The notes beneath the pieces are model-generated. The model worked only from the letters and a program-made list of their open reading frames with translations, did no database searches and was not told the origin of the DNA. The translations under genes and the position numbers were made by a program. A stretch of 64,000 nt of DNA from the NCBI RefSeq assembly GCF_036014215.1, contig NZ_CP107921.1, positions 3,769,001-3,833,000 on the forward strand, given 5' to 3'. Shown here piece by piece: positions 34,473 through 63,799 of the stretch (its first letter is position 1; each line of letters begins with the position of its first letter). The DNA is from Streptomyces sp. NBC_00440. Lineage in GTDB: Bacteria; Actinomycetota; Actinomycetes; Streptomycetales; Streptomycetaceae.

Positions 34473-34566
34473 TCCTCGTTACCCGTCATTCAGACGCGCT
34501 TGCGACCCTCTCGGAATGCAACCCGTCACCGCGCCCGCCGACCCTCCCGCGCGGAACAATGGGCAT

Positions 34567-38264: not shown

Positions 38265-38437
38265 CGCCACCGGACCGCACCGGACCGCCCCGCACCGGCC
38301 CAGGAGGCACGGAAACGCCCGGAAACGCCCGGAAACAACGGGCCACCGCGAGGCCACAGAGGCGCCGCAGAAGGGCTGGAAACAGCGGTGCCGCACAGAG
38401 GCATGGGGCGTACGGGGCCTGTGGCGGCGGACGGTGC

Positions 38438-38459
38438 GTCACCCTGCGGTCACCGCACA
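38438..38459 (+). promoter_or_regulatory. PHO-box-like direct repeat (upstream pair)
   Basis: GTCACCCTGCG (38438-38448) is followed without a gap by GTCACCGCACA (38449-38459), an 11-bp periodic repeat beginning GTCACC as in PhoP sites. It is weaker than the pair at 38487-38508. Confidence 0.45.
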
Positions 38460-38486
38460 GGACCCCGCACCCGGTCGTCCGCCGAG

Positions 38487-38508
38487 GTTCACTCTCCGTT
38501 CACTCACC
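38487..38508 (+). promoter_or_regulatory. PHO box of pstS (PhoP-binding direct repeats)
   Basis: GTTCACTCTCC (38487-38497) and GTTCACTCACC (38498-38508) are contiguous 11-bp direct repeats matching the Streptomyces PhoP consensus GTTCACC. They lie about 30 bp upstream of the putative -10 and 135 bp upstream of pstS, as expected for activation under phosphate starvation. Confidence 0.85.
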
Positions 38509-38642
38509 CCCGTCGGCCACTTCACCTGATCTGCCTAATTTCGGCCTTACACGGTGCACGGCACCCCGCCGCACCGGTCACCTCTTCGCACGCCGCCGTA
38601 CAACGAATCGAAACCCGGCGGCTCCTGGAAGGAACACCCGAA

Positions 38643-39782: not shown

Positions 39783-39924
39783 TCCGGTTCCCCACGTTCC
39801 ACACGTTCCACAGCAGTGACGGCGTCCGGCCCGGAGCGCTCCTCCGGGCCGGTCACCGCCCCCCCATCCGGTGCACCGCCGCCAGGGGAGCCACAGCTCC
39901 CCCACACAGACCGGAAAGACCACC

Positions 39925-40920
39925 ATGGCTACCACCGCACAGATAGACACCCCTCCACCGGAAACCCCCCTCCACACCCCGTCGGGCCCGTCCACCGGCC
40001 GGCTGGGCGACCGGGTCTTCCTCGGCCTCTCCAGAGGCTCGGGCGTCCTGCTCCTCGTGGTGATGGCAGCGATCGCGGGGTTCCTCACCTACCGCGCCTC
40101 CATCGCCATCTCGAAGGACCAGGGCAACTTCTTCACGACGTTCGACTGGCTGCCCTCGCAGACACCGCCGGTCTTCGGCATCGCGGTCCTGCTCGTCGGC
40201 ACCGTCATCAGCTCGGTCATCGCGATGGTCATCGCGGTCCCCGTCGCCGTCGGCATCGCGCTCTTCATCTCGCACTACGCGCCGCGCAGGCTGGCCACCA
40301 CACTCGCGTACGTGGTGGACCTGCTGGCCGCGGTGCCCAGCATCATCTACGGCATCTGGGGCGCCCTGATCCTGGTGCCCTACCTCGGCGGCCTCAACGT
40401 CTGGCTCGACCAGTACTTCGGCTGGACGTACATCTTCGACCAGACGCAGCCCGGCGTCTCGCGGAACATGCTGACCGTCGGCATCCTGCTGGCGATCATG
40501 ATCCTGCCGATCGTGACCAGCGTCAGCCGGGAGGTCTTCCTCCAGGTCCCGCGGATGAACGAGGAAGCCGCGCTCGCCCTCGGCGCCACCCGCTGGGAGG
40601 TCATCCGGCTCTCCGTACTGCCCTTCGGACGCTCGGGTGTCATCTCGGCCTCCATGCTGGGCCTGGGCCGGGCGCTCGGCGAGACGATGGCCGTCGCCAC
40701 GGTCCTCTCGCCCAGCTATGTGATGTCGCTGCACCTGCTCGACCCGGGCGGCGGCACCTTCGCCCAGAACATCGCGGCGAAGTTCGACGAGGCCAACCCG
40801 CTGGGGCGTGACGCCCTGATCGCGTCCGGCCTGGTCCTCTTCGTCCTCACCCTGCTCGTGAACGGCGCGGCCCGGCTGATCATCGCCCGCCGCAAGGAGT
40901 ACTCGGGGGCCAACGCATGA
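39925..40920 (+). CDS. pstC: PstC, phosphate ABC transporter permease
   Basis: A 331-residue permease with six predicted helices and the BPD_transp_1 EAA loop EEAALALGATRWEVIRLSVL (about 213-232). The long first extracytoplasmic loop is typical of PstC. The start at 39925 (MATTAQIDT) is chosen over an upstream ATG at 39871 that extends into the intergenic sequence. The stop overlaps the pstA start (ATGA). It works with PstA, PstB and PstS. Confidence 0.95.
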   Translation: MATTAQIDTPPPETPLHTPSGPSTGRLGDRVFLGLSRGSGVLLLVVMAAIAGFLTYRASIAISKDQGNFFTTFDWLPSQTPPVFGIAVLLVGTVISSVIAMVIAVPVAVGIALFISHYAPRRLATTLAYVVDLLAAVPSIIYGIWGALILVPYLGGLNVWLDQYFGWTYIFDQTQPGVSRNMLTVGILLAIMILPIVTSVSREVFLQVPRMNEEAALALGATRWEVIRLSVLPFGRSGVISASMLGLGRALGETMAVATVLSPSYVMSLHLLDPGGGTFAQNIAAKFDEANPLGRDALIASGLVLFVLTLLVNGAARLIIARRKEYSGANA

Positions 40921-41996
40921 GCGACACAGCCGTAGAGACCGGACAGGAGCAGACGCCGCGCGTGCACGCGGCTCCGAGCCTCAGCGCCCGCAGCCTCCCC
41001 CGCTGGGCGCCGGCCGGCTTCGCCGCCGCCGCGATCGTGATCGGCGCGGGGATCGGCACCGCCGCAGGCCTCAGCAGCAAGGTCCAGTGGGGCCTGATCG
41101 CCGTCGCCGCCTTCCTCGCGCTCTCCTACGTCACGACCGCGCTGGTCGAGAACAAGCGCCAGGCCAAGGACCGCTTCGCGACCAGCATCATCTGGGTCTG
41201 CTTCATCCTGGCCGTCATCCCGCTGCTCTCGCTGCTCTGGACGACCGTCGGCCACGGGGTCAAGGACCTCAGCGTCAACTTCCTCACCCACTCGATGGTC
41301 GGCGTCCTCTCGTCCGACCAGGGCGGCGGCGTCTACCACGCGCTGGTCGGCACCGTGGAGCAGGTCGGCATCGCCACGGTGATCGCCGTCCCCATCGGCC
41401 TGCTGACGGCCGTCTATCTGGTGGAGTACGGCAAGGGCGCGCTGGCCAGGGCCGTGACGTTCTTCGTGGACGTCATGACCGGCATCCCGTCCATCGTCGC
41501 CGGCCTGTTCATCCTGTCGATCATGCTGATGACCGACACCGCGCCCTCGGGCCTGATGGGCTCGCTCGCGCTGACGATCCTGATGATGCCGGTCGTGGTC
41601 CGCTCCACCGAGGAGATGCTCAAGCTCGTCCCGAACGAGCTGCGCGAAGCGGCGCTGGCCCTCGGCGTACCGAAGTGGCGCATGATCCTCAAGGTCGTCC
41701 TGCCGACCGCGATCGGCGGTATCACCACCGGTGTGATGCTGGCCATCGCGCGCATCGCCGGGGAGACCGCGCCGATCATGCTGCTGGTGTTCGGCAGCCA
41801 GATGATCAACACCAACCCCTTCAAGGACGGCCAGTCCTCCCTGCCGTACTACATCTTCGAGCAGTACAAGCTCGGCGAGCCGCCCGCGATCGACCGGGCC
41901 TGGGCAGCGGCACTGGTGCTGATCGCCTTCGTCATGATCCTGAACCTCGTCGCCCGCGGCATAGCCCGCTGGAAGGCCCCGAAGACCGGCCGCTGA
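40917..41996 (+). CDS. pstA: PstA, phosphate ABC transporter permease
   Basis: The 359-residue partner permease: about seven helices and an EAA loop LREAALALGVPKWRMILKVV (about 242-261). The N-terminal 40 residues are polar and cytoplasmic. The ATG overlaps the pstC stop by 4 bp. The long helical region and IMLMTDTAPSGLMGSLALTI segment fit PstA. Confidence 0.95.
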   Translation: MSDTAVETGQEQTPRVHAAPSLSARSLPRWAPAGFAAAAIVIGAGIGTAAGLSSKVQWGLIAVAAFLALSYVTTALVENKRQAKDRFATSIIWVCFILAVIPLLSLLWTTVGHGVKDLSVNFLTHSMVGVLSSDQGGGVYHALVGTVEQVGIATVIAVPIGLLTAVYLVEYGKGALARAVTFFVDVMTGIPSIVAGLFILSIMLMTDTAPSGLMGSLALTILMMPVVVRSTEEMLKLVPNELREAALALGVPKWRMILKVVLPTAIGGITTGVMLAIARIAGETAPIMLLVFGSQMINTNPFKDGQSSLPYYIFEQYKLGEPPAIDRAWAAALVLIAFVMILNLVARGIARWKAPKTGR

Positions 41997-42020
41997 GGCC
42001 GAGAGAAGAAGCTGATTTTC

Positions 42021-42797
42021 ATGGCCAAGCGAATCGACATCAGCGGCCTGACCGCCTACTACAGCTCCCACAAGGCCATCGAGGACATCTCGATGACCGT
42101 GGAACCCCGCTCGGTGACCGCCTTCATCGGCCCGTCCGGCTGCGGCAAGTCGACCTTCCTGCGCACCCTCAACCGGATGCACGAGGTCACCCCGGGCGGC
42201 CGCGTCGAGGGCAAGGTGATGCTGGACGACGAGAACCTGTACGGGAGCCACGTCGACCCCGTCGCCGTACGCCGTACGGTCGGCATGGTCTTCCAGCGCC
42301 CGAACCCCTTCCCGACCATGTCGATCTTCGACAACGTCGCGGCGGGCCTGCGCCTGAACGGCTCGTACCGCAAGAGCGAGCTGACCGACATCGTCGAGAA
42401 GTCGCTCCGGGGCGCCAACCTCTGGAACGAGGTCAAGGACCGCCTCAACAAGCCGGGCTCCGGGCTCTCCGGCGGCCAGCAGCAGCGGCTCTGCATCGCC
42501 CGCGCCATCGCGGTCGAACCGCAGGTCCTGCTGATGGACGAGCCGTGCTCGGCGCTCGACCCGATCTCCACCCTCGCCATCGAGGACCTGGTGGGTGAGC
42601 TGAAGGAACGCTTCACGATCGTCATCGTGACGCACAACATGCAGCAGGCGGCGCGCGTCTCGGACCGCACGGCCTTCTTCAACCTCTCGGCGGTGGGCAA
42701 GCCGGGCCGGCTCATCGAGATCGACGAGACCGAACGGATCTTCTCGAACCCGTCAGTCCAGGCGACCGAGGACTACATCTCGGGCCGCTTCGGATAG
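42021..42797 (+). CDS. pstB: PstB, phosphate ABC transporter ATPase
   Basis: A 258-residue ATPase with Walker [10 protein letters not shown], a PstB-specific [19 protein letters not shown] segment, signature [16 protein letters not shown], Walker [14 protein letters not shown] and H-loop [15 protein letters not shown]. It couples ATP hydrolysis to phosphate import through PstCA. It lies 24 bp after pstA and ends the operon; no phoU follows here. Confidence 0.97.
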
Positions 42798-50769: not shown

Positions 50770-51774
50770 TCAGGCCTTCGACCCGTTTTTGGGCAGTGCA
50801 TTTGCGCCATCCTGGGTGACGCGCGTGGCCCCGAAGTAGTCCGGCGAGTCGATCTTGTCGAAGCGGATCACCGACCCGGTGTACGGCGCGTCGATCATGT
50901 AACCGCCGCCCACGTACAGCCCCACGTGGTGGATGGCACGGGAGTTGGAGAGGTCGTTCGAGAAGAACACCAGATCCCCCGGCAGCAGCTGATCGCGGGA
51001 CGGATGCTCCCCGGCGTTGTACTGGTCGTTGGCCACCCGCGGCAGCGTGATCCCGACGCTGTGGTACGCGGCCTGCGTCAGCCCCGAGCAGTCGAACCGC
51101 CCGCCCTGACTCGCGGTGCCGGTCCCGCCCCAGAGATACGGAGTACCGAGCTTCTGCTGCGCGTAGTAGATGGCCGCGGCGGCCTGCTGCGACGGAGCCA
51201 CCCCGTTGACCGGCCTGGCGAAGCTCTTCTCCAGGGTGCGGATGACCTTGACGTAGTTCTGCGTCTCCCGGTACGGCGGGACCCCGCCGTGCTGGATGAC
51301 GGCGTACGACCCCGCGTTGTACGCGGCGAGCATGTTGTCGCTCTGATCGCCCGGCACGTTCTTCACGTACTTGGCCAGTTCGCAGTCGTACGACGCGGCT
51401 GACGGAATCGCGTCGGCCGGATCCCAGATGTCCTTCTTGCCGTCGCCGTTGCCGTCGACACCGTGCGTCGCCCAGGTGCCGGGAATGAACTGGGCCATCC
51501 CCTGCGCGTTCGCCGGGCTCTTGGCCGTCGGATCCCAGCCGCTCTCCTGGTACAACTGCGCCGCGAGCAGTGCGGGGTTGAGCGCGGGACAGAGGTTGCC
51601 CCACTTCTGCACGGTCGCCTGGTAGGCGGCCGGCACGGCGCCCTTGGCCAGCGCGACGGTGGAACCGGTCCTGTCGATTCCGGCCGCGGCGGAGTACGTT
51701 CCGACGACGAGCAGGCCGATGAAGCCCAGACTCGCCCCGAACCCGATCCCGCCCATGACCAAGACTTTGCGCAT
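50770..51774 (-). CDS. Lytic transglycosylase/NlpC-P60 cell-wall hydrolase (VirB1-like)
   Basis: The 334-residue protein has one N-terminal membrane segment (GIGFGASLGFIGLLVVGTYS), a goose-lysozyme-like transglycosylase domain (catalytic Glu in YQESGW, then MAQFIPGTW and AYNAGSYAV) and a C-terminal NlpC/P60 peptidase with Cys in FDCSGLTQAAY and His in IHHVGLYVGG. This pairing of glycan- and peptide-cleaving domains is typical of conjugation-linked hydrolases that open peptidoglycan for secretion channels. It lies close to the T4SS-like genes but on the opposite strand. Confidence 0.92.
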   Translation of the reverse strand: MRKVLVMGGIGFGASLGFIGLLVVGTYSAAAGIDRTGSTVALAKGAVPAAYQATVQKWGNLCPALNPALLAAQLYQESGWDPTAKSPANAQGMAQFIPGTWATHGVDGNGDGKKDIWDPADAIPSAASYDCELAKYVKNVPGDQSDNMLAAYNAGSYAVIQHGGVPPYRETQNYVKVIRTLEKSFARPVNGVAPSQQAAAAIYYAQQKLGTPYLWGGTGTASQGGRFDCSGLTQAAYHSVGITLPRVANDQYNAGEHPSRDQLLPGDLVFFSNDLSNSRAIHHVGLYVGGGYMIDAPYTGSVIRFDKIDSPDYFGATRVTQDGANALPKNGSKA

Positions 51775-51815
51775 CCCTCAACCCTCCCCCATTCGGCCCC
51801 GGTTCACTGCCTACT

Positions 51816-52778
51816 TCACTCGGAAACCCGAACAGCTGATGCTGGCGTAGTCCGTTGGGGTTGATTTGACGTGATCGGCTCCACCGGCCCGACCGGAACC
51901 ACCGGATCCACCGGCCCGGAAGGCGCCGCCTCGCCCAGCCCCGCCAGCGCCCCGTAGAACGCGTCGTCCACCAGCGCCGCCCGCACCGAGCAGGCCGCGA
52001 TGACCTCGGTGAGCGAGGGGCGGGCCGCCGGGTCCTTCGCCACGCAGCGGCCGATCAGCCCGGCCAGCTCCGGCTCGACGCCGCCCAGGTCGATCTCCTC
52101 GTGCACCACCCGGTAGCCGATCCCGGCCGGCTGCCCGCCCCCGAACGGCGCCCGCCCGGTCGCCGCGTACGCCATCGTCGAGCCCAGCGCGAAGACATCC
52201 GCCGCCGGTCCGACCTGATGCGTGATCAGGACCTCGGGCGCGGCGAAACCGGGGGTCCCGGGCGCGAGCCCCGTCTCGGTGAGCGCCGCGTCCCCCGTGC
52301 CGCGGGCGATCCCGAAGTCGATCAGCTTCGGGCCCTGCGCGGACAGGATGATGTTCTGCGGCTTGAGATCCCGGTGCGTCACTCCGTACGCATGGACACT
52401 CGCCAGCCCCTCGGCGAGCGCGGCGAACACTCCGCGGCAGGTCGCCACCGGGAACGGCCCACGACGGCGTACGGCATGACTGAGCGTCGGGCCCGACACA
52501 TACTCGGTCGCCAGCCAGTACGGCGGCTCGGCCAGCGAGGCGTCGATCAGGTTCGCCGTGTACGCGCTGCGTACCGCCCGTACGGTCTCGACCTCACGGC
52601 GGAAGCGGCCGAGCGCCTCGGGATGGTCGGTGATCTCGTCCCGGATGACCTTGATCGCGACCAGCCGCCCACCGGGCGAACGCCCCAGATGGACCTGGCC
52701 CATGCCGCCCGCACCGAGCCTGGCGAGCAGTGCGTGCGCGCCTATCCGCGGCGGGTCGTGAGGTCTGAGTGCGTCCAC
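51816..52778 (-). CDS. Serine/threonine protein kinase (soluble)
   Basis: A 320-residue Hanks-type kinase with all motifs: GAGGMG (P-loop), AIKVI (Lys), HRDLKPQN (catalytic loop), DFGIAR, APE and the C-terminal helix. No transmembrane segment or PASTA repeats are seen; the last 45 residues are Pro/Val-rich. It is thus a cytoplasmic kinase. The GTG at 52778 (VDALRPHDPPRIG) is preferred because it starts the conserved segment; an upstream TTG at 52814 is possible. It lies next to the cell-wall hydrolase and the Tat-secreted protein, perhaps in the same transcript. Confidence 0.9.
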   Translation of the reverse strand: MDALRPHDPPRIGAHALLARLGAGGMGQVHLGRSPGGRLVAIKVIRDEITDHPEALGRFRREVETVRAVRSAYTANLIDASLAEPPYWLATEYVSGPTLSHAVRRRGPFPVATCRGVFAALAEGLASVHAYGVTHRDLKPQNIILSAQGPKLIDFGIARGTGDAALTETGLAPGTPGFAAPEVLITHQVGPAADVFALGSTMAYAATGRAPFGGGQPAGIGYRVVHEEIDLGGVEPELAGLIGRCVAKDPAARPSLTEVIAACSVRAALVDDAFYGALAGLGEAAPSGPVDPVVPVGPVEPITSNQPQRTTPASAVRVSE

Positions 52779-52888
52779 TGGGCCCACTGTTTCAGCCGAC
52801 CCGGCGCCAATCAAGGGGCGTTGGACCTCACGGCCGCCACGAACGCCCTCTCACCGCCGCACCCGCACACCGGCAACAGGGCTGCCCG

Positions 52889-54118
52889 TCACCGGCCGCC
52901 CGCGCCGCCCTGCCGCAGCTTCTTGAAGGTGTACGCGCCACCCCGCGCGGCCGGCACAGAGGTGCACCTGACCAGCAACCGCTCACCGCCCGCCCGGCCG
53001 GCGCTCCGGCCGGGCCGCCGGTACTCGACCACGTACGTGCCGTGCAGGACGACATGGCTGTCCGGGTCCAGTGAGCAGGTGAGCGTCGTACCGGTCTCGG
53101 TGCCCGTCCTGGCGGCGGCGGCCGGCGGGCCGGCCGCGGCCACGTCCTTGGTGGAGCCCGGCTCGGCCCCCGGCGCGGCCACCGGCTCCCGCACCGCCCG
53201 GAGCACGATGCCGCTGACCCGCGTACCGCTGCCCGTACCGCCGCCCAGCCGGCCGCCGGGCGCGGGGTGGACGAGGGCGGCGACGAATCCGTCGCCCGGG
53301 ACCACCGCGGCGAAGTCACCGTCCCAGGACCAGCCGGACTCGACGTCGTACGACAGGTCGGCCGGGCTCATCCGGTCCAGGTCCACCTGGACCGCCGGCC
53401 CGGGAGCGGACTCCACCACCGACCCCGGCGCCGACGGGCCGGCGGCGAAGGCCAGGACCACCTGCCCCAGCGGGAAGACGACGTTCTGCCCCTGTCCGGG
53501 CAGCGGCAGCGCACAGACCGGCACCGGGGCGCCCCCCGCCGGGGCGGGCTGCGCCAGACCGCACGAGAGCGGTGTCGCGGTGGTGTCCGAGATGGTGACA
53601 GCCCCGGGCGTACCCCCGCCGATGACGGTGGAGCGCGCACCCGCGCCGACATCGAGGGTCTGCCCCGGCGAGACCCGGGTGAGGTCCACCCCCGCGAGCC
53701 GGGCACCGTCCGGGGTATCACCGGGCGTGACGAAGGCGTAGTACTGCTCGGTCCAGGCCAGTTCGGTCCGGGTCGTGTACGTGCTCGTGGAGCTCCACAG
53801 GACGGGCAGCCCCCCGGTGCTCTGCTCGCTCTGCACGGCCTTGAACATCAGCAGCCGGTGGCCGGAAGCAGTCAGCTGACGCACCGTCCCGGCAGGCATG
53901 TTGACCCGTACCGCGTACCGCACACCGGGAGCGGCGAACCGGTGCGCCGCGCTGCGGGCCGGCCCGGCGTGCGGGACGGGGCGTGCGGGACGGGCAGGCC
54001 GTTCGGACACAGCCCCCTCCGCCCGGCGCAGCAGCGCGGGCACCAGGGCGGCGGCACCCACTACCGCGCCGCCCGCGGAAACCTGCCGGAGAAAGGTGCG
54101 CCGGGACTGCTCAGCCAT
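52889..54118 (-). CDS. Tat-exported protein, unknown function
   Basis: Unrecognised family. The 409-residue product begins with a twin-arginine signal (SRRTFLRQVSAGGAVVGAAA) and a short Arg/Pro linker. The mature part is beta-rich with Ser/Thr/Gly, two or three Cys (SCGLAQPAP, VPVCAL, LTCSLD) and low hydrophobicity. It is divergent from the T4SS-like operon with 475 bp between and could be an extracytoplasmic component of it, but no homology shows this. ATG at 54118 has GGAGGAC 8 nt upstream. Confidence 0.75.
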   Translation of the reverse strand: MAEQSRRTFLRQVSAGGAVVGAAALVPALLRRAEGAVSERPARPARPVPHAGPARSAAHRFAAPGVRYAVRVNMPAGTVRQLTASGHRLLMFKAVQSEQSTGGLPVLWSSTSTYTTRTELAWTEQYYAFVTPGDTPDGARLAGVDLTRVSPGQTLDVGAGARSTVIGGGTPGAVTISDTTATPLSCGLAQPAPAGGAPVPVCALPLPGQGQNVVFPLGQVVLAFAAGPSAPGSVVESAPGPAVQVDLDRMSPADLSYDVESGWSWDGDFAAVVPGDGFVAALVHPAPGGRLGGGTGSGTRVSGIVLRAVREPVAAPGAEPGSTKDVAAAGPPAAAARTGTETGTTLTCSLDPDSHVVLHGTYVVEYRRPGRSAGRAGGERLLVRCTSVPAARGGAYTFKKLRQGGAGGR

Positions 54119-54593
54119 GGGATGTCCTCCGAGTCTCGCGGTGACGAGTGCCGCGGCACCAGGGCCGCCGGACCGGTCAGCGGGGCAGCCCCGCGGGCAC
54201 CTCAGCACACCCCCGTACGGCACGGTGCGAGGCACACGGCCGGACCGGGACGCCTGCACCCGCACGGCCGAAGAACAGCCCCGGGAGGGAATAGACGGGC
54301 CGTCAGCCGGGCGCCGGGCGCAAACGGGACGGCTCCTCTTCCCCGACAGCCGCTTCCCCGGCAGCCGCATCATTGCCCGGCGTCACCCCCCGTGATACAC
54401 AGAGTAACCATGCATGTTCGACCGAGCACGAGTCCGCGTCGCAGGTCAGAGCAGCATGTTCGGACAAATGCGCGGGCATGTGCGTAAAGAGAGCCGCCGG
54501 GTTACACACGGGGGCTGTTTCATCAGCGAAGATAGGGCGTGACCCGTGCACTGGAGCATGGGCACGAACTACCCGATAGGGGCGGTGAGTTAC
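54119..54593. other. 475-bp divergent promoter region of the T4SS-like locus
   Basis: No gene is seen. GCATGTTCG occurs at 54412-54420 and 54454-54462 (42 bp apart, four helical turns), and GTAACC (54404-54409) mirrors GGTTAC (54500-54505). A possible -10 GATAGG precedes a GTG at 54546. These repeats are candidate operators; no regulator is assigned. Confidence 0.5.
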
Positions 54594-54902
54594 ATGAACC
54601 TGGCAGCCGACAAGGGCGACATCAGCACCATCATCGGCGGAATCGCCCCCAACTGGGGGCCGTTCGGGAGCCTCGGCAACGAGGCACGGATCATGGTCGA
54701 GGTCGTGATGGCGGTCGCCATCCTGCTCTGCCTCGGCATCGCGATCTGGGGTGCGGCCAAGCAGCGTATCGGCGCCACCGCACTGCGGGACACCTTCAGC
54801 GCGGAACAGGGCAAGGGCCTGATCGTCGCCGGGCTCACCGGCGTATTCATCATCGGCTCGCTGGGAACCGTCTTCACCATCGTGTACGGGATGGCCGTCT
54901 GA
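54594..54902 (+). CDS. VirB2/TrbC-like two-helix membrane protein
   Basis: A 102-residue protein with an amphipathic N-terminus (MNLAADKGDISTIIGGIAPN) and two hydrophobic helices (about 34-52 and 71-95, the second IVAGLTGVFIIGSLGTVFTI) with a short basic loop. This topology is that of VirB2-type pilins or small T4SS pore proteins. The ATG at 54594 is chosen because GGGGCGG lies 8 nt upstream; a leaderless GTG at 54546 would add 16 residues. First gene of the plus-strand operon. Confidence 0.75.
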   Translation: MNLAADKGDISTIIGGIAPNWGPFGSLGNEARIMVEVVMAVAILLCLGIAIWGAAKQRIGATALRDTFSAEQGKGLIVAGLTGVFIIGSLGTVFTIVYGMAV

Positions 54903-55061
54903 CCCCGCATCATCCGTCCCGCACTCCCCGGGCGTGCCCGGCCCACCCAGAGGTTGCGCATACCTGATGTCGAGTCACCACAGCCCGCCCGCGCGGGAAC
55001 CAGCACAGTTACCGTCGTACTGCACGACGACACGGCAAACGGTTGAGGGGGCGTCCGCGGC

Positions 55062-55916
55062 ATGAGTCTCGGAGACGAGAACAACTACGGCAGCGACGCG
55101 GGCCGCTCCGACGGCATGGGCGGCTCGGGCCAGACCCGTACGCGCCTGCCCGAGGGCGAGGGCGACCCTTACGGCGGCGCCAGACGCCCCGTACGCGCCT
55201 CACGCTCCCTCATCACGGTCGTGGGCGTCGTGGTGCTGCTCATCGCCGCCATCGCCTTCGCCAACCGCGGCAACGGCAGCAGCAGCGACGTGTCGGACGA
55301 CAGCAACGGAGCGAAGCGGCCCGGCTCGAACGCCACAGCGGCCTCCGGCGTCAAACCGGTCACGGGCAGCAACAGCGGCATCGCATCCGGCTTCGCCCAC
55401 ACGAGCCAGGGGGCGCAGAGCGCTGCGGCGAACTATGCGGTGGTGCTGGTGTCGGCCGACATCCTGAAGCCCGCCCGCCGCGGGGACATCGTGAACAAGG
55501 TGTTCGTGCCCGACCAGGTCGACGCGTTCAAGAACAAGCTCGACAAGGCCTATGACAAGCAGCTCCTGGACAAGATCGGACTCGACGCCAACGGCAACGC
55601 CGGCAAGGGCCTGACCTATGTCTCACGCACCGCACCCGTCGGCACCAAAATCACGCAGCAGTCCGGCGACACCGCGACCGTCGCGGTCTGGTGCACGGGA
55701 GTGTTCGGCACAGCCGGCGTGGGCTCGACCAGCCCGGTGACCAGCGACTGGTTCACCATGACGCTCAAGCTCCAGTGGGTGAGCGACAACTGGAAGGTCC
55801 AGAGCTTCACCCAGAAGGACGGCCCGGCCCCGGTGAACACCGACAGCAAGGCCTCCACCGCCGACGAGATCGCCAAGGCAGTCGAGCAGTACGGAGGGTT
55901 CACCTATGCCCGCTAA
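55062..55916 (+). CDS. VirB8-like bitopic membrane protein
   Basis: The 284-residue protein has a 45-residue polar cytoplasmic head, one transmembrane helix (about 48-66, LITVVGVVVLLIAAIAFANR), a Ser/Gly/Asn linker and a C-terminal domain with alternating strands (MTLKLQWVSDNWKVQSFTQK). This topology and the NTF2-like tail pattern are those of VirB8/TraM/TcpC proteins, the scaffold of Gram-positive conjugation channels; homology is inferred from topology and context. It overlaps the next gene by 11 bp. Confidence 0.75.
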   Translation: MSLGDENNYGSDAGRSDGMGGSGQTRTRLPEGEGDPYGGARRPVRASRSLITVVGVVVLLIAAIAFANRGNGSSSDVSDDSNGAKRPGSNATAASGVKPVTGSNSGIASGFAHTSQGAQSAAANYAVVLVSADILKPARRGDIVNKVFVPDQVDAFKNKLDKAYDKQLLDKIGLDANGNAGKGLTYVSRTAPVGTKITQQSGDTATVAVWCTGVFGTAGVGSTSPVTSDWFTMTLKLQWVSDNWKVQSFTQKDGPAPVNTDSKASTADEIAKAVEQYGGFTYAR

Positions 55917-57249
55917 CCCACGCCGCGCGCTCACCGTCGCGGGAGCCCTCACCGCCGTACAGACAGCGGCGGTGCTGCTCTCCGCCCGCGCGTTCGCCGC
56001 CCCCTCACCGACGCCTTCACCGTCGTCGTCGGGCAAGGACGACTGCAGCCTCCTCATCGGCCCCGTCCGTGACCGCTGCGAAGGCACCGCGGGCGGCGGA
56101 GCCAGCAACACCCCCCCGGCCGACTCCCTGGACCCTCTCTCCTCCCTGGCCAAGGGCTGTGCCGACGCCGCCGCCTGGATCGTCGGCAAGCTCTCCGACG
56201 CGGTGAAGAGCACGGCCAACGTCGACTTCACCAACAGCTCCTTCCTCCGCCAGTACGCCGTCGTCTTCGCCGCCTCCACCATCCTCACGCTCGTCCTCTG
56301 GCTCCTCGCCGTGGCCAAGCGCGCCGTCCGCGGCGTCCCCCTCACCACCGCGCTCTCCGAGGCCATCGGCTTCCTCTGGCTGACCGTCATCGCCTCCGCC
56401 TTCACCCCGCTGATCCTCTACACACTGGTCTCGGCGACCGACAGCGTCACCGAGGTCATCGCATCGGCCACCGGCGGCAAGAACGACGTCTTCTTCGGGG
56501 CCTTCGCCGAGGCGCTCAAGAAGGGCTCCGACATCGGCGGCGGCCCGATCATGCTGATCGTCACCTCCCTGGTGTCGATCCTCGCCGCCGGCGTCCTCTG
56601 GCTCGAACTCGTCATCAGGGCCGCCCTCCTGTACGCCGGCGCCCTCCTCGGCACCGTCGTCTACGCGGGCCTCGTCGACAAGAACATGTGGGGCCACGTC
56701 CGCCGCTGGGCCGGCATCATGATCGCGGTGATCATGGTCAAACCGGTCATCGTGATCGTGCTCGGCCTCGCCGGCGCGCTCTCCTCCGGCAAGGGCCCCG
56801 ACTCCTTCTCCGCCGTCGTCTCCGGCCTCGCGATCATCCTGCTCGCCATCTTCGCCAGCGGCATGATCTACCGCTTCGTCCCCGGCTTCGGTGACGAGGT
56901 CGCCGCCTCCCGCACCAACCGCAAGTCCGCGACCGACGGCGCCCAGGCCGCCGCCATGATCAGCTCGCCCGCCGCGCTCGTGTCCCAGGGCATCAAGACC
57001 CACAGCAGCCGCGGCGGGGGCGGCGGAAACGACAGCGGGAGCGGCGGAGGCGGCGGCGGACGCCCCGCCAACCCCATCTCCGGAGGCGTGGCGGCCCACA
57101 GCAGCCGCGGCGGCTCCGGCGGACAGAGCGGCCAGGGCGGCGGAACCGGCGGAAAGATCCCCAACGCCGCGTCCCCGCCCCGTAACAAGCCGAGCAGCTC
57201 CGGAACCCACAGCACACGCAACAACGGCACAGGAGGAGGAGGGCGTTGA
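55906..57249 (+). CDS. VirB6/TrbL-like polytopic membrane protein
   Basis: The 447-residue protein begins with a signal-like helix (cleaved near AFA-AP) and a Cys-bearing external segment (CSLLIGPVRDRCEG), followed by about six hydrophobic helices from residue 108 to 325 and a Gly/Ser/Arg-rich cytoplasmic tail with two copies of AHSSRGG/THSSRGG. This is the layout of VirB6/TrbL channel proteins. It overlaps VirB8-like by 11 bp and the next gene by 4 bp, indicating tight translational coupling. Confidence 0.78.
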   Translation: MPANPRRALTVAGALTAVQTAAVLLSARAFAAPSPTPSPSSSGKDDCSLLIGPVRDRCEGTAGGGASNTPPADSLDPLSSLAKGCADAAAWIVGKLSDAVKSTANVDFTNSSFLRQYAVVFAASTILTLVLWLLAVAKRAVRGVPLTTALSEAIGFLWLTVIASAFTPLILYTLVSATDSVTEVIASATGGKNDVFFGAFAEALKKGSDIGGGPIMLIVTSLVSILAAGVLWLELVIRAALLYAGALLGTVVYAGLVDKNMWGHVRRWAGIMIAVIMVKPVIVIVLGLAGALSSGKGPDSFSAVVSGLAIILLAIFASGMIYRFVPGFGDEVAASRTNRKSATDGAQAAAMISSPAALVSQGIKTHSSRGGGGGNDSGSGGGGGGRPANPISGGVAAHSSRGGSGGQSGQGGGTGGKIPNAASPPRNKPSSSGTHSTRNNGTGGGGR

Positions 57250-58796
57250 CGACCCAGTCCCAGCCGGTCGCGCCCCGCCGCACGTATCTGATCGGCCGCG
57301 CCCGGCCATCGGCGATCGTCGGCAAGAACCGCGAGACGGGCGAGATCGCACTGATCATCGCGGGCGCCTTCCTCGGCATGATGTGCGGACTCCTCGTCCC
57401 CGTCCTGCCCCTGCGCATCGTGACGCTGACCGGCTTCCCGATGCTGGCCCTCGCCGCGGTGTACGTCCCGTACAAGCACCGCACGTTCTACAAGTGGTTC
57501 GAGATCAACCGCAGCTACAAGCGCTCCCTGCGCCGCGGCACCGCCTACCGCTCCCCCACCATGGAAGCGGGCATCGCACTCGACGGCCGCGAGGTCGAGA
57601 TCGGCCCGCCGCCCGGCATCGGCAGGATCAACTGGCTGGCGGCCCCCTTCGGCCCCGACGAGATCGCCGTACTCCTGCACGCCGACCGGCGCACCGTCAC
57701 CGCCGCCATCGAGATCGAGGGCCCCGGCGTCGGCCTGCGCGACTCGGAGGACCAGGAAGCCCTGGTGGACCGGTTCGGCACCCTGCTCAAGCATGTGGCC
57801 AACGGCGACGGATTCGTCACCCGCCTGCAGATCCTCGCCCGCACCCTCCCCGCCGACCCGGACGCACACGCCAAGGACGTCGCCCAGCGCGGCGACCCCC
57901 GCGCCCCCGGCTGGCTCCAGGACTCGTACGACCAGCTCGCCTCCATGGTCTCCACCTCCAGCGAGCAGCACCGCGCGTACCTGGTGGCCTGTATGCACTT
58001 CACCCGCGAACTGGCGTCCGAAGCCCACGCCATGGCCCGCGCCGCCCGGCCCGCCGCAGGCCGCCGCCTCGACAAGGACGCCGGCCTCGCCGTCGTCATG
58101 GCCCGCGAACTCACCGACATCTGCGCCCGCCTCGCCGAGGCGGACATCCGGGTACGCCAGCCCCTCGGCCAGGGACGGCTCTCCTCGCTCGTGCACTCCA
58201 TGTACGACCCGGACCACCCCATCGACCACATCCAGGCCATGACGAAGCGCAACGCCTGGCCCGCCGAGCTCGACGCCGTCGAACCCACCTACCTCCAGGC
58301 CAAGACCCGCGAGTCCTCCACCCGTGCACCCTGGTGCCACGCCACCGCCTGGGTGAAGGAGTGGCCGATGACCCCCGTCGGCGTCAACTTCCTCGCCCCG
58401 CTGCTCGTCCACACCCCGGACGTGATCCGTACGGTCGCGGTCTGCATGGACCTCGAACCGACCGAGGTCGCCATCGAGCGCATGCTCACCGAGAAGACCA
58501 ACGACGAGGCCGAAGCATCCCGCGCCGCCAAGATGAACCGGACCGTCGACCCACGCGACGTCGCCACCCACGGCCGCCTCGACCAGCGCGGCGAAGACCT
58601 CGCCAGCGGCGCGGCAGGCGTCAACCTGGTCGGGTACATCACGGTCTCGTCCCGCTCACCCGAAGCACTGGCCCGCGACAAGCGGACCATCCGCGCATCG
58701 GCCGGCAAGTCGTATCTCAAGCTCGAATGGTGCGACCGCGAGCACCACCGCGCCTTTGTGAATACGCTGCCGTTCGCGACCGGCATCCGCCGATAG
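57246..58796 (+). CDS. SCO6880/PrgI-type protein, probable N-terminal VirB4 partner
   Basis: A 516-residue protein with two adjacent hydrophobic helices (about 37-75) followed by a cytoplasmic domain resembling the N-terminal domain of VirB4-type ATPases; it contains no Walker motifs. It resembles proteins annotated as the 'SCO6880 family' in conjugation-like loci (recalled). The TTG start at 57246 is fixed by a 4-bp overlap (TTGA) with the preceding stop. Given the short VirB4 ATPase encoded next, the two chains may together replace a fused PrgI-VirB4. Confidence 0.8.
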   Translation: MTTQSQPVAPRRTYLIGRARPSAIVGKNRETGEIALIIAGAFLGMMCGLLVPVLPLRIVTLTGFPMLALAAVYVPYKHRTFYKWFEINRSYKRSLRRGTAYRSPTMEAGIALDGREVEIGPPPGIGRINWLAAPFGPDEIAVLLHADRRTVTAAIEIEGPGVGLRDSEDQEALVDRFGTLLKHVANGDGFVTRLQILARTLPADPDAHAKDVAQRGDPRAPGWLQDSYDQLASMVSTSSEQHRAYLVACMHFTRELASEAHAMARAARPAAGRRLDKDAGLAVVMARELTDICARLAEADIRVRQPLGQGRLSSLVHSMYDPDHPIDHIQAMTKRNAWPAELDAVEPTYLQAKTRESSTRAPWCHATAWVKEWPMTPVGVNFLAPLLVHTPDVIRTVAVCMDLEPTEVAIERMLTEKTNDEAEASRAAKMNRTVDPRDVATHGRLDQRGEDLASGAAGVNLVGYITVSSRSPEALARDKRTIRASAGKSYLKLEWCDREHHRAFVNTLPFATGIRR

Positions 58797-58806
58797 GGGC
58801 CCTGTG

Positions 58807-60219
58807 ATGCGAGATCCGATGTCAGCCGTCACCGACGCCTTCGCCGCGTTCCTCTTCGGCAAGGTCGAGACGACGCGCCTCCCCGTCCGTACGTCGACGG
58901 GCCAGGCCCAGGCGGTCTACCTGCCGACGGCCGCCCCCGGTCTCGGCGACTCCGGCGTGATCATCGGCCGCGAGGTCTACTCGGGCAAGGGGTACATCTA
59001 CGACCCCTTCCAGCTGTACGGACAGCAGCTGCCCGCCCCGCACTGGCTGGTGCTCGGCGAATCCGGCAACGGCAAATCCTCCCTGGAGAAGACCTACGTC
59101 CTGCGCCAACTGCGCTTCAAGGACCGCCAGGTCGTCGTCCTCGACGCCCAGGGCGAGGACGGCGCCGGTGAATGGGCCCTCATCGCCCAGCAGCTGGGTA
59201 TAACCCCCATCCGGCTGGACGCGATGGCCGCGCTCGACCACGGCATCCGGCTCAACCCGCTGGATCCGGCCATCGCCACCACGGGCCAGCTGGCCCTGCT
59301 CCGTACGATCATCGAAGTCGCCATGGGCCACGGCCTGGACGAACGCTCGGGCTTCGCGCTCAAGGTGGCGCACGCGTACGTCAACGAGACCATCACCGAC
59401 CGCCAGCCGGTCCTCACCGACATCGTCGAGCAACTCCGCCACCCGGAACCGGAGTCGGCGGAGGCGATGAACGTCGGTATAGACGATGTACGGGCCTGGG
59501 GCCTGGACGTCGCCCTCGTCCTGGACCGCCTGGTGGACGGTGACCTGCGCGGCATGTTCGACGGCCCGACCTCGGTCGGTATCGACCTGGACGCCCCGCT
59601 GATCGTCTTCGACCTGTCCCACATCGACCGCAACTCCATCGCCATGCCCATCCTGATGGCGATCGTCGGTGTCTGGCTGGAACACACCTGGATCCGCCCC
59701 GACCGCAAGAAGCGCATCTTCCTCGTCGAAGAGGCCTGGCACATCATCAACAGCCCCTTCGTGGCACAGCTCTTCCAGCGCCTGCTGAAGTTCGGCCGGC
59801 GCCTGGGCCTGTCGTTCGTCGCGGTGGTCCACCACCTCTCGGACGTGGTGGACGGCGCCGCCGCCCGGGAAGCGGCGGCCATCCTGAAGATGGCGTCGAC
59901 CCGGACCATCTACGCCCAGAAGGCCGACGAGGCACGGGCGACGGGCCGCGTCCTGGGCCTGCCGCGCTGGGCCGTCGAGATCATCCCGACCCTGACCCCG
60001 GGCATCGCGGTCTGGGACGTCAACGGCAACGTCCAGGTCGTCAAACACCTGATCACCGAGGCCGAACGCCCCCTCGTCTTCACCGACCGCGCCATGACCG
60101 AGTCGTCCACCCCGGAAGCCGACGACGCGCTGACCCTCCAACTGGAGACGGAGGCGGAGGAACGAGCGGCCAGGATCGAGCGGCAGCTGAACGAGTCCTC
60201 AGAGTCGACGGTGGCCTGA
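58807..60219 (+). CDS. VirB4-like T4SS ATPase (motor domain only)
   Basis: A 470-residue HerA/FtsK-type ATPase with Walker A GESGNGKSS (84-92), Walker B RIFLVEEAWHII, and a late Gln/Arg finger region (TRTIYAQKADEA). The fold and LDAQGEDG and FDLSHIDRN motifs are VirB4-like. It lacks the N-terminal VirB4 half (normal length about 800), which the preceding gene appears to supply. Start ATG 58807 has AGGGG 7 nt upstream; GTG at 58804 adds one residue. It should power assembly or transport. Confidence 0.88.
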   Translation: MRDPMSAVTDAFAAFLFGKVETTRLPVRTSTGQAQAVYLPTAAPGLGDSGVIIGREVYSGKGYIYDPFQLYGQQLPAPHWLVLGESGNGKSSLEKTYVLRQLRFKDRQVVVLDAQGEDGAGEWALIAQQLGITPIRLDAMAALDHGIRLNPLDPAIATTGQLALLRTIIEVAMGHGLDERSGFALKVAHAYVNETITDRQPVLTDIVEQLRHPEPESAEAMNVGIDDVRAWGLDVALVLDRLVDGDLRGMFDGPTSVGIDLDAPLIVFDLSHIDRNSIAMPILMAIVGVWLEHTWIRPDRKKRIFLVEEAWHIINSPFVAQLFQRLLKFGRRLGLSFVAVVHHLSDVVDGAAAREAAAILKMASTRTIYAQKADEARATGRVLGLPRWAVEIIPTLTPGIAVWDVNGNVQVVKHLITEAERPLVFTDRAMTESSTPEADDALTLQLETEAEERAARIERQLNESSESTVA

Positions 60220-60220
60220 T

Positions 60221-61909
60221 ATGCACGACACCCCGCACCATGGGCACCACCAGCAGCACGAGCACCACAACCGGCACCACCCAGCTCACCACCCAGCGCA
60301 CCAGCAGCCGTCCCAGCCGCAGTCACGCGGCATCCCGGACGGGCTGCTGATCGCGCTGATCGTCTTCCTGCTCGGCCTGACCCTCCTGGTCTGGCTGGCC
60401 ACGGGCCTCGCCGCCGTCTTCGCCCACGGCGCCTGGCCGGACGGCGTGACCGTGACACACACCCCGGTGGCCATGCGCGAACTGGCCGCGTCCCCGCACG
60501 ACCTCGCCGCCGCCTGGCCGGACACCCCACCGGGCCGGCTCTCCGGATACGGGTTGTTCTGGGGCCTGCTCATCAGCGAAGTCCTGGTCCTGCTGGTGCT
60601 GACCGTCTTCGTCCTCGGCACGCTCACCCGCTGGCGCGCGGTACGCAACGCCCGCCGGACAGCCACAACCGGCACACCACACGTCGCGCCCCCGAGGTCA
60701 CCGGAGCGGACCGCGCCACAGAGCACCGACCAGACCGTCCCCACCGAGCAGACCCAACAGCCTCAACAAGCTCAACAGCCTCAACATCCCCAACAGGTCG
60801 AGCACACCGAGCAGTTCATGCAGCCCGGCCTGCTGGCCGAGGCTGCTGCCACCCCCACAGGCGCCACCGACCGCCCCGCCGGAACAGCGCCGGCCACCCC
60901 CGCACCGGCCCCCACAGCCACCCCCGACCCGATCGCCCCCGCCCCGGCTGCCGCCGACGCCCTCCTCCCGGTGCCCCTGGTCCGCTTCGGGCCCGCCCCG
61001 GTACGCCGGGCCGCCGCTGTCCAGGCCGTGAGCGACGCGGCCGGCCCCGCACTCGTCGTCACCTCCTCCCCCGCTGTCTGGTCGGAGACGAAGGACGCCC
61101 GGGCCAAGCTCGGCCCCGTACTCGTCTACGACCCCGGCCACCTCTGCGACACCCCCGCCCGCCTCCACTGGTCCCCCACGAGCGGCTGCGAGGACGCCGA
61201 CACCGCCGCCGCCCGCGCCGTCGCGCTGCTCGCACCGGTCCGTCCGACCGCCCGCATCGACACGACCATGGCCGACACCGCCGAGACGCTCCTGAGCAGC
61301 TGGCTGCACGCCGCAGCCGTCGACGGCCGCCCGTTCCGGCAGGTCCACCGCTGGGCCCAGGGCGCCGGCCAGGCCCAGGAGGCGGTACGCATCCTGCGCA
61401 CCCACGCACGGGCGCGCTCCGGATCGGCAGGCCTCCTGGAGTCGGCGCTCACCGCCCACCCCGAACGCCGCGAGGTCGCCCAGGAGCTGACGGCCCGTGC
61501 ACTGAGCGCACTCTCCTCGATCCACATCCGCGAAGCCTGCACACCGAACCGAACCGATACGGTCACGCTGGAATCATTCATCCACGAGGGGGGCACTCTC
61601 TATGTGGTGGGTGAAGCAATCGAGGACCCGCGCACGCACCCCGGCGCCATGCCGTTTCTCACCGCACTCGCCTCCAGCGTGGTCGAGCACGGCCGCCGCT
61701 TGGCCGCACGGTCAACTGACGGTCGGCTCGACCCACCAATGACGCTCGTCCTGGACGATGTCGCCGCGGTGGCCCCGTTCCCGTATCTGCCGGAGCTGCT
61801 CACATCCGGCCACGAGCAGGGTCTGCATCCGCTGGCACTGCTCCGCTCCCGCGAACAGGCGCGCAACCGCTGGCCCCACCAGGAACTGCCCGACGCCACA
61901 CCCTTCTGA
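60221..61909 (+). CDS. Coupling-protein (VirD4/TraG)-like membrane protein with degenerate P-loop
   Basis: A 562-residue protein: His/Gln-rich head, two transmembrane helices (about 42-66 and 108-130), a Pro/Gln/Thr-rich linker and a C-terminal domain that follows the actinobacterial coupling-protein pattern (ALVVTSSPAVWS, GPVLVYDPGHL, LHWSPTSGCEDADTAAARA, MTLVLDDVAAVAPFPYLPEL). The Walker A site is replaced by APVRRAAAVQAV, without GKT/S, while the Walker B equivalent LVLDD remains. It therefore may not hydrolyse ATP. It ends the T4SS-like operon. Confidence 0.78.
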   Translation: MHDTPHHGHHQQHEHHNRHHPAHHPAHQQPSQPQSRGIPDGLLIALIVFLLGLTLLVWLATGLAAVFAHGAWPDGVTVTHTPVAMRELAASPHDLAAAWPDTPPGRLSGYGLFWGLLISEVLVLLVLTVFVLGTLTRWRAVRNARRTATTGTPHVAPPRSPERTAPQSTDQTVPTEQTQQPQQAQQPQHPQQVEHTEQFMQPGLLAEAAATPTGATDRPAGTAPATPAPAPTATPDPIAPAPAAADALLPVPLVRFGPAPVRRAAAVQAVSDAAGPALVVTSSPAVWSETKDARAKLGPVLVYDPGHLCDTPARLHWSPTSGCEDADTAAARAVALLAPVRPTARIDTTMADTAETLLSSWLHAAAVDGRPFRQVHRWAQGAGQAQEAVRILRTHARARSGSAGLLESALTAHPERREVAQELTARALSALSSIHIREACTPNRTDTVTLESFIHEGGTLYVVGEAIEDPRTHPGAMPFLTALASSVVEHGRRLAARSTDGRLDPPMTLVLDDVAAVAPFPYLPELLTSGHEQGLHPLALLRSREQARNRWPHQELPDATPF

Positions 61910-62975: not shown

Positions 62976-63205
62976 CAGGCGCCCCTCCGGTTCCGGTGAA
63001 CATTCACGGCGGACAGCGGAGCAGCGCAGCGGACGGAGCCGACCGTGCAGGTGGAGAGGGGGGCCGTTCACAACCGGCCACGCGCCATTCACAGTGCCGT
63101 GCCGTCGCGTATTCAACCGCGTTGACCGGCACGCAACAACACCCGATGCTCACCACAGCGTCCGGACGCGCTCCTCCAATCCACCCCCACCACGGGAGGA
63201 ACACG

Positions 63206-63799
63206 ATGCGCACCCACAGGAGACGGCTGTCCCTGGCCGCCATCGCCACCGCGGCAGCCCTGTTCACCCTGCCCATCTCCACGGCGGCAGCCACCCCCAC
63301 GACCGTGCCAGCGGCGGCGGGAGCCAAACGCCTCGACATCACCATGCAGGAGCAGCAGCAGACCAACTGGTGCTGGGCCGCGACGGGCAACACCATCGCC
63401 GGCTGGTACGGCCGCGACTACAGCCAGAACCAGTTCTGCAACGCCGCGTTCGGCCGCAGCCAGAACGGCAACTGCCCCAACGACCAGGCCACCCTCGCCA
63501 ACGTCCAGGACGGCCTCGACTGGGCCGGTATCAGCCCGGGTTCCTATGTCACCGGCTGGCTCCAGTCGTCCACCGTACAGACCGAGATCAACGCCGGCCG
63601 CCCCATCGCCGACCGCATCCAGTGGTCGAGCGGCGGCGGGCACATGAATGTCGTCTACGGGTACGACACGGCCGGCGACTGGGTCTACTGGGGCGACCCC
63701 TGGCCGTCGGACAACCGCTACAACTGGGCCGCCCACGACTGGTACGTCAGCAACAACGAGTTCTCCTGGACCCACTCGCTCTACCGGATCGGGGCGTGA
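63206..63799 (+). CDS. Secreted papain-like cysteine protease (C39/C70-like)
   Basis: A 197-residue secreted protein: signal peptide with cleavage near residue 28 (LAAIATAAALFTLPISTAAA), then a papain-fold domain with catalytic Cys in QTNWCWAATGNTIAGWYG, His in GGGHMNVVYGYD and Asp or Asn in YWGDPWPSDN. The QQTNWCWAA pattern is that of the AvrRpt2-like C70 and related families. Substrate unknown. The ATG at 63206 has GGGAGGA 7 nt upstream. The gene for a second secreted protein starts 5 bp after its stop. Confidence 0.88.
   Translation: MRTHRRRLSLAAIATAAALFTLPISTAAATPTTVPAAAGAKRLDITMQEQQQTNWCWAATGNTIAGWYGRDYSQNQFCNAAFGRSQNGNCPNDQATLANVQDGLDWAGISPGSYVTGWLQSSTVQTEINAGRPIADRIQWSSGGGHMNVVYGYDTAGDWVYWGDPWPSDNRYNWAAHDWYVSNNEFSWTHSLYRIGA

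Follow-up and report, generated by a model that had tools for sequence, protein, structure and literature searches.

The chromosomal cmd and tgdA genes of Streptomyces: a probable type IV secretion-type machine with a decayed coupling protein

The published cmd operon and its counterpart in Streptomyces sp. NBC_00440

The closest described relative of the locus treated here, a set of seven genes in a 64,000-nucleotide stretch of Streptomyces sp. NBC_00440 (hereafter the window; C1:3769001-3833000, in the mid-part of an 8.40 Mb contig of a genome of 8.68 Mb and two contigs), is the cmdABCDEF operon of Streptomyces coelicolor. In the accessible portions of its description (Xie et al. 2009, PMC2782261), cmdABCDEF forms a single transcript, CmdB is membrane-bound and expression climbs with aerial growth. 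Sporulation was defective in mutants of every cmd gene except cmdA, and anucleate spores were reported at 8% in the cmdB mutant and 6% in the cmdA-F mutant, the two for which segregation defects were demonstrated. Conserved lysines of CmdB were required, and CmdB, described as VirB4-like, is the only Cmd protein so named there. A related operon of the plasmid SLP2 was reported to be needed for SLP2 transfer, and this transfer was not significantly changed in cmd mutants (authors' data not shown). A transposon study of 2019, likewise accessible in part (PMC6585502), grouped tgdA (SCO4132), cmdBCDEF and SCO5677 by phenotype, with actinorhodin raised to an equal level in the mutants of all of them, and gives SCO4142 as pstS.

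Our comparative analysis suggests, with a probability of about 65%, that the chromosomal cmd genes together with tgdA encode a type IV secretion system (T4SS)-type machine, related to plasmid conjugation clusters, which Streptomycetaceae keep as a resident chassis after loss of its own coupling ATPase. This reading is based on colinear plasmid clusters that carry an intact VirD4 in the place of cmdA, one of them on a MOBF-typed plasmid. It is further based on the VirB4, VirB8-fold, SCO6880-family and SLT plus NlpC/P60 identities of the products, along with a family-wide CmdB and low ratios of nonsynonymous to synonymous substitution (dN/dS). The published transcript, expression, sporulation and anucleate-spore phenotypes, and the actinorhodin phenotype shared by the tgdA, cmdBCDEF and SCO5677 mutants, also argue for it.

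The locus itself is known; what is new is the part list. Judged by gene order, neighbourhood, gene lengths, the Walker lysine and the identity figures to SLP2 (the S. coelicolor sequence was not among the compared DNA), it is the already published cmdABCDEF (SCO4126-4131) plus tgdA. As in S. coelicolor, there are six co-directional genes with a hydrolase gene upstream and pst genes close by (Table 1). The Walker lysine is residue 91 in the window CmdB against 90 in S. coelicolor, and many other Streptomyces copies align from residue 2; identity to SLP2 is 33.6% over 393 residues, against the 33% (133/393) given for SCO4127 in PMC2782261. The full F-E-D-C-B-A order was recovered in 61 of 80 named Streptomyces loci, the remainder having missing or oddly picked frames. 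In the full-text-searchable literature (subscription papers being outside its reach), nothing was found that describes CmdE as VirB8-like, CmdA as a dead VirD4 or SCO5677 as coupling-protein-like in the Cmd setting, and no published idea of plasmids using Cmd was met there, though no search was aimed at that point. Neither CmdB nor cmdABCDEF occurs in a 2025 T4SS review (PMC12857230), and the accessible portions of PMC12691689 and PMC10711302 do not mention cmd.

Parts of the machine, their conservation and the decay of CmdA

The original prediction, made from the letters of this stretch, had placed a T4SS-like set of eight or nine genes here. Its reading frames were confirmed, but seven of the called genes belong together, namely tgdA and cmdF to cmdA. 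The 4-11 bp overlaps it described from 55062 onwards hold for the first two junctions among the last five genes (11 bp at 55906-55916, 4 bp at 57246-57249), whereas the next two are gaps of 7 and 1 bp. Its VirB1-like hydrolase, VirB8-like protein and VirB4 motor were borne out. TgdA exceeded the Pfam cut-offs for both SLT (57.9 bits) and NLPC_P60 (89.9 bits), has an N-terminal hydrophobic segment and is 52.6% and 45.6% identical to the hydrolases of SLP2 and pMDJK44.2, both encoded within transfer-type operons; by these features it is a predicted VirB1-type wall hydrolase. CmdE has a VirB8 fold and is a VirB8-type scaffold protein. CmdB matched Pfam AAA_10 (48.3 bits, cut-off 27.5) and the solved VirB4 structure 4ag5 (expectation value, E, of 1.5e-6), and is on these matches a VirB4-type ATPase. 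CmdC scored 182.7 bits with NCBIfam NF042935 (SCO6880 family, cut-off 60), PrgI matched its relatives weakly (E 0.006, in 1 of 11), and the protein appears to be of the VirB3/PrgI-VirB4N type.

The VirB2- and VirB6-like proteins of the prediction agree with the locus in size, topology and position, but no Pfam match was obtained for the window CmdF or CmdD proteins. Matching plasmid proteins share 39-40% identity with CmdF (E 7e-20 to 2e-22). Its mean identity is 90% among the loci with a match, and its size, topology and position suggest a VirB2-like protein. CmdD has several hydrophobic segments and is homologous to plasmid proteins of the same position (E 2e-33, 2e-24 and 2e-65); TrbL_4 matched its relatives only weakly (best E 0.031, in 2 of 7), and topology and position suggest a VirB6/TrbL-like protein. 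Solved structures searched with CmdE, CmdC and CmdD profiles yielded no useful match.

Table 1. Genes of the cmd-tgdA locus (from gene calls) and neighbouring features, in window coordinates
Feature	Position	Strand	Description
tgdA homologue	50770..51774	-	SLT + NlpC/P60; predicted VirB1-type wall hydrolase
cmdF	54546..54902	+	small membrane protein, start uncertain; possibly VirB2-like, by size, topology and position solely
cmdE	55062..55916	+	bitopic, extracytoplasmic VirB8 (NTF2-like) domain
cmdD	55906..57249	+	polytopic membrane protein; possibly VirB6/TrbL-like, by topology and position
cmdC	57246..58796	+	SCO6880 family; N-terminal membrane segment and VirB4-N-like region
cmdB	58804..60219	+	VirB4-type ATPase, Walker A intact (GESGNGKS, K91)
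cmdA	60221..61909	+	degenerate VirD4/TraG coupling protein; Walker A and C-terminal part missing
variable insert	51816..54373		between tgdA and cmdF; 0.3-5.3 kb in the 37 loci with tgdA found
ppk	34516..36798
pst genes (PstS/C/A/B)	38388..42797
papain-like protease	62996..63799		C70 (AvrRpt2-like) family, downstream of cmdA; same place in 2 of 80 loci

Related clusters were found on plasmids. In pMDJK44.2, typed MOBF, an unbroken row begins with a tgdA-type hydrolase gene, runs through F, E, D, C and B and, after one small gene, closes with an intact VirD4 gene. In two megaplasmids (Actinacidiphila, NBC_00015) an M23 hydrolase gene lies upstream of F and E, a small gene follows, and then come D, C, B and VirD4. 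SLP2, typed non-mobilizable, has tgdA-type hydrolase, CmdC-like and CmdB-like genes after an FtsK/SpoIIIE-type gene, and none of seven SLP2 products compared matched CmdA, CmdD, CmdE or CmdF at E 1e-3. Counted by eye, at least 24 plasmid records are present both among the TgdA matches (60 of 190 listed) and among the CmdB matches (40 of 195, and 60 of 109, listed).

CmdB was detected in 150 of 150 Streptomycetaceae genomes, at 81-93% identity outside NBC_00440 and with one partial match. A class survey of 345 genomes revealed it in all 40 of the own genus and in 59 of 305 others at E 1e-30 or better, 58 of the latter at 29-37% identity and one at 77%, a genome of another family (G156) that also has tgdA and the F-E-D-C-B gene order. 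NBC_00440 contains a single CmdB-type gene (matches at E 1e-3, both contigs), and its one weak TraG-D_C match is CmdA itself; a second T4SS in this genome was rejected accordingly. One other Streptomyces genome carries a second cmd-type cluster (L195, G047:C7), 49% identical, which comprises F, E, D, C and B besides a CmdA-type match.

The synteny search across Streptomyces that had been proposed as a check was run by tblastn on the 80 named loci. CmdC, CmdB and CmdA were present in all 80, CmdD in 79, CmdE in 78 and CmdF in 76, and TgdA in 37 (inside the fetched 10 kb); each of the two genes that follow cmdA turned up in 2. The kinase and the protein exported by twin-arginine translocation (Tat), thought possible members of the set, occurred in 6 and 2 of the loci and were rejected as machine parts. 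With 20 kb of upstream DNA, 18 of 20 genomes, drawn from nine genera, yielded TgdA (own genus 11 of 12, others 7 of 8), and in those seven loci of other genera it lies directly beside cmdF. The arrangement with tgdA next to cmdF is probably the older one, the kinase and Tat genes lying in a variable insert. Low dN/dS was obtained for CmdB (0.11), CmdF (0.13) and CmdC (0.15), simple counting values that, at about 70% G+C, serve for ranking only; rows with less than 85% of the window protein aligned were excluded, as were L027 and L028, leaving 32 to 77 rows per gene.

The coupling-protein homologue of the prediction stands as to VirD4 homology but lacks Walker A. CmdA matched plasmid VirD4 proteins at E 7e-35 (L026) and 6e-32 (L025, whose VirD4 scores 69.8 bits with PF02534 and 82.6 bits with PF12696), and among 30 of 281 plasmid records listed the match starts at residues 278-298, past the site of the absent Walker A. 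A P-loop was found in none of 40 Streptomyces sequences examined, and the Walker B stretch reads LDD in all 40; the sample comprised 39 of the 80 loci, those with a best open frame aligned over more than 400 residues, plus the window (L027 being close to the window strain), and L241 was left out, 4701 of its 7860 bases being N. The protein ends 45-56 residues past the Walker B stretch, compared with 163-190 in three plasmid relatives. At 19 informative loci of several genera, none of 13 extracted frames had a P-loop; the C-terminus is kept longer in g3, g4, g7 and g10, single loci of g2 and g5 retain only a membrane stub of 138-158 residues, and no CmdA match was present in four of four g13 loci. 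This pattern fits a stepwise loss. By its motifs CmdA is a dead VirD4, and no active coupling ATPase was recognised in the operon. Such decay agrees with the published normal (silent) cmdA mutant.

In the working proposed here, TgdA would open peptidoglycan, and CmdE (VirB8), CmdD (VirB6-like), CmdF and CmdC would form a complex in membrane and cell wall. CmdB, as the VirB4 ATPase, would drive assembly or motion, probably at growing aerial hyphae and sporulation septa. CmdA would be unable to load cargo as an ATPase, and any loading would come from proteins encoded elsewhere, SCO5677 being the best host candidate. What the machine delivers in development, whether remodelling of the envelope or export by way of the channel, would be required for straight aerial growth, regular septation and chromosome segregation; an action on the cell envelope fits the tgdA link.

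Candidate partners and rival explanations

A compatible extension of this proposal is a machine split over two chromosomal loci, in which an SCO5677-type ATPase, encoded 2.3 Mb off beside gabT, feeds DNA or protein into the Cmd channel in aerial growth and septation. We consider this possible, with the odds somewhat against it. In the accessible part of PMC8998196, SCO5676 is gabT and SCO5679 a predicted semialdehyde dehydrogenase. Two genes lie between gabT and an aldehyde dehydrogenase gene in NBC_00440, coding for a membrane ATPase and a PucR regulator, and from this position the ATPase (C1:6139233-6141251) is expected to be SCO5677. The protein contains a P-loop, belongs to no Pfam family and was found in 149 of 150 genomes of the family, the exception being an 800-contig draft. 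For the model of a homologue (P0121, 94% identical), coupling proteins outranked VirB4 and HerA in the VIA second look, and the protein fits a VirD4/TrwB fold with Walker A. On the other side, the Foldseek matches by themselves all fell short of E 0.001 (top TrwB, 2.4e-3), the model is poor around the P-loop, and profile comparison of the family with plasmid VirD4s aligned the P-loop only (probability 52). Pfam coupling-protein models exceeded their cut-offs in none of 40 close relatives, and the distant relatives L189, L190 and L198 are over such cut-offs; of 120 listed homologues, 2 are already entered at source as 'type IV secretory system conjugative DNA transfer family protein'. Asp639-Asp640 is invariant in 40 of 40 sequences, which, with Walker B assigned by our own reading, gives Asp-Asp and not Asp-Glu and counts against the ATPase as coupling motor.

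Further points speak against this extension. Actinorhodin is overproduced in wblA and cydABCD mutants as well (PMC6585502), and members of the SCO5677 family are present in 14 class genomes from a different bacterial family, six of which gave no CmdB match at 1e-30. In L198 the gene sits after an M48 peptidase gene, and the draft genome G156, which has cmd, gave no SCO5677 match. As an observation in its own right, the SCO5677-type gene follows an M48 metallopeptidase gene outside Streptomycetaceae (L198:9192-11943 by Pfam; L189 and L190 by annotation), and the two possibly form a two-gene module.

Five Streptomyces plasmids (L184-L188) carry SCO5677-type proteins of 48-57% identity, whose Walker A is degenerate in three (L185, L186, L187), another point against. 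On four of the five (L184-L187, not L188) the gene adjoins a CmdD homologue (46-51% identical), which in L187 has a CmdE homologue beside it. No CmdB, CmdC, CmdF or TgdA match at E 1e-3 was found in L184-L187, of which L184-L186 are complete records and L187, like L188, is a stretch. A further protein common to L184-L186 and L188 is a large one of 681-760 residues, with a P-loop but of no known family; in L184 it has a sub-cut-off AAA_10 match, and its profile comparison with CmdB aligned the P-loop region only.

Searching with CmdD turned up 27 plasmid records, of which 16 hold a close homologue (45-59% identity). All seven of these plasmids below 50 kb were read whole (L184-L186 and L250-L253), as distinct from nine others. 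L250-L253 are complete plasmids of 31-46 kb with a MobF relaxase, supported by TrwC scores of 137.3 and 136.2 bits in the two scanned and by annotation in the other two. Their VirD4 proteins exceed the PF02534 cut-off (61.9-95.6 bits), retain the P-loop in all four and belong to the same family as the dead CmdA (E 6e-18 to 2e-27). A CmdD homologue is present in all four (51-55% identical to the chromosomal protein), a CmdE homologue in three and, in L253, a CmdF homologue of 80.5% identity. None of the seven small plasmids gave a CmdB, CmdC or TgdA match at E 1e-3, while in control stretches the same search recovered all three in L202 and CmdB and CmdC, not TgdA, in L025. Several CmdD plasmids are typed non-mobilizable by MOB-suite despite an annotated mobF gene.

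These gene sets raise a second compatible extension, namely that MOBF plasmids borrow the resident Cmd machine, bringing their own relaxase, VirD4 and CmdD (often CmdE) and relying on the host for CmdB, CmdC and TgdA. It is drawn from the complementarity of plasmid and chromosomal genes, not from any transfer result, and we regard it as possible, with the odds again somewhat against it. A VirB4 beyond the reach of tblastn may exist: L252 has a 68-residue match (1e-5) to the CmdB-like protein of SLP2, and L253 encodes P-loop proteins of 905 and 614 residues, the larger without a Pfam match. Alternatively, the plasmid copies of CmdD and CmdE might act on the host machine by blocking or modifying it. 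For SLP2 transfer cmd was dispensable, but SLP2 has its own CmdB-like gene.

Together, the SCO5677 findings and the CmdD plasmids point to partners that dock on a resident machine. In its broadest form, the coupling-less chassis of Cmd and TgdA would be a vertically inherited, shared docking platform whose ancestral VirD4 (CmdA) is dead, on which the host docks SCO5677 for development and MOBF plasmids dock relaxase, VirD4 and CmdD/CmdE and through which they conjugate; the gene content allows this, and we hold it to be unlikely. If it were true, plasmid transfer in Streptomycetaceae would hang on a core sporulation operon.

Unlikely, too, is a machine that exports a specific protein, such as a developmental signal, coat protein or toxin, with CmdB alone or another adaptor. 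T4SS-type parts in a genome lacking a MOBF or MOBP relaxase match would suit such a role, as would the shifts in development and antibiotic timing in S. coelicolor mutants (PMC2782261) and the toxin export proposed for other Streptomyces T4SS-type clusters in the accessible part of PMC12691689. However, no conserved candidate cargo gene lies beside the operon, the Tat protein being so rare at these loci. Classical T4SS protein export uses a VirD4, which has decayed here.

Signs of mobility were sought in the genome. The claimed absence of relaxase and integrase holds in that no MOBF (PF08751) or MOBP (PF03432) relaxase match was found and the nearest tyrosine integrase match (C1:3907959) is some 77 kb away on the downstream side of cmdA; the search did not extend to further relaxase classes, serine integrases or att repeats. 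ARAGORN found no tRNA in the window. The locus thus shows neither a relaxase of these classes, nor a nearby integrase, nor the patchy distribution of a conjugative element. The argument from the missing relaxase is nevertheless weak, because SLP2, with an operon reported as required for transfer, is itself typed non-mobilizable and has an FtsK/SpoIIIE-type gene adjoining. Separately, two integrase matches (G000:C1:14123-14629, C2:266957-267463) lie some 14 kb from an end of their respective contigs, in DNA that is 99.96% identical between the two over a length of 2622 bases, and the chromosome and the 282 kb contig seem to share end sequence. A defective integrative conjugative element (ICE) in neutral decay was rejected as highly improbable: CmdA has decayed and an ICE screen of 11 strains classed as defective an element near mid-chromosome in all strains (accessible part of PMC9513070; its identity with cmd is a guess), but presence in every family genome, strong constraint on CmdB, CmdC and CmdF, the published phenotypes and the integrase distance contradict it. 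That 'defective ICE' may be the cmd operon misread by the screen.

A resident T4SS-type chassis that has lost its coupling ATPase thus remains the preferred reading, and several points weigh against it. The VirB2 and VirB6 assignments are weak, and any substrate, complex or location of Cmd is hypothetical. Orthology to cmd rests on indirect likeness and not on direct alignment to SCO4126-4131; the second published essential lysine, K404, has no counterpart at 404-405 of the window CmdB, where the next lysine is K414. The original authors allow that the CmdB lysine mutants may be no more than unstable (PMC2782261). In the CmdB tree, which was not used as evidence, chromosomal copies form one clade in 30% of bootstrap trees, the chromosomal and plasmid branches do not separate and one plasmid branch is very long. 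CmdA, with dN/dS 0.43, is no less constrained than CmdD (0.47) and CmdE (0.53), and this similarity suggests that it may keep a non-ATPase role. Nevertheless, the domesticated conjugation machine of the original prediction is well supported: the set is core in Streptomycetaceae and colinear with plasmid clusters, its VirD4 homologue is decayed, and the mutant effects are developmental and not on SLP2 transfer (PMC2782261).

With this part list, why an operon with a VirB4-like ATPase governs sporulation and antibiotic timing becomes testable. Each gene gets a role, the normal cmdA mutant is accounted for, tgdA is tied to cmd and SCO5677 is nominated as the missing motor. Plasmids with a relaxase and a coupling protein but no detectable VirB4 suggest that relaxase and channel may be split between replicons. 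If plasmids truly use the chromosomal machine, this would be a family-wide exception to the rule that the conjugation channel rides on the mobile element, and plasmids now typed non-mobilizable would merit re-examination.

Comparison with known systems

Compared with the cmd locus of S. coelicolor, the one described here belongs to another species and has kinase and Tat genes between tgdA and cmdF. The clusters of pMDJK44.2 and the two megaplasmids share with the chromosome a homologous F-E-D-C-B order and a VirD4 at the cmdA end. They differ in that this VirD4 is intact, with P-loop and C-terminus, and in their extra small genes; the hydrolase is of the M23 and not the SLT/NlpC kind on two of the three, whereas pMDJK44.2 has the tgdA type in first place. 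The SLP2 operon has the tgdA-type hydrolase and the CmdC-like and CmdB-like proteins in common with the chromosome, but is led by an FtsK/SpoIIIE-type gene. L250-L253 share CmdD and often CmdE homologues, and differ in bringing a relaxase and VirD4, with CmdB, CmdC and TgdA all undetected; their set and that of the chromosome complement each other. In contrast to the conjugative T4SS of Gram-positive bacteria such as pIP501 and pCF10, Cmd is without an active coupling protein or relaxase and is a chromosomal core set.

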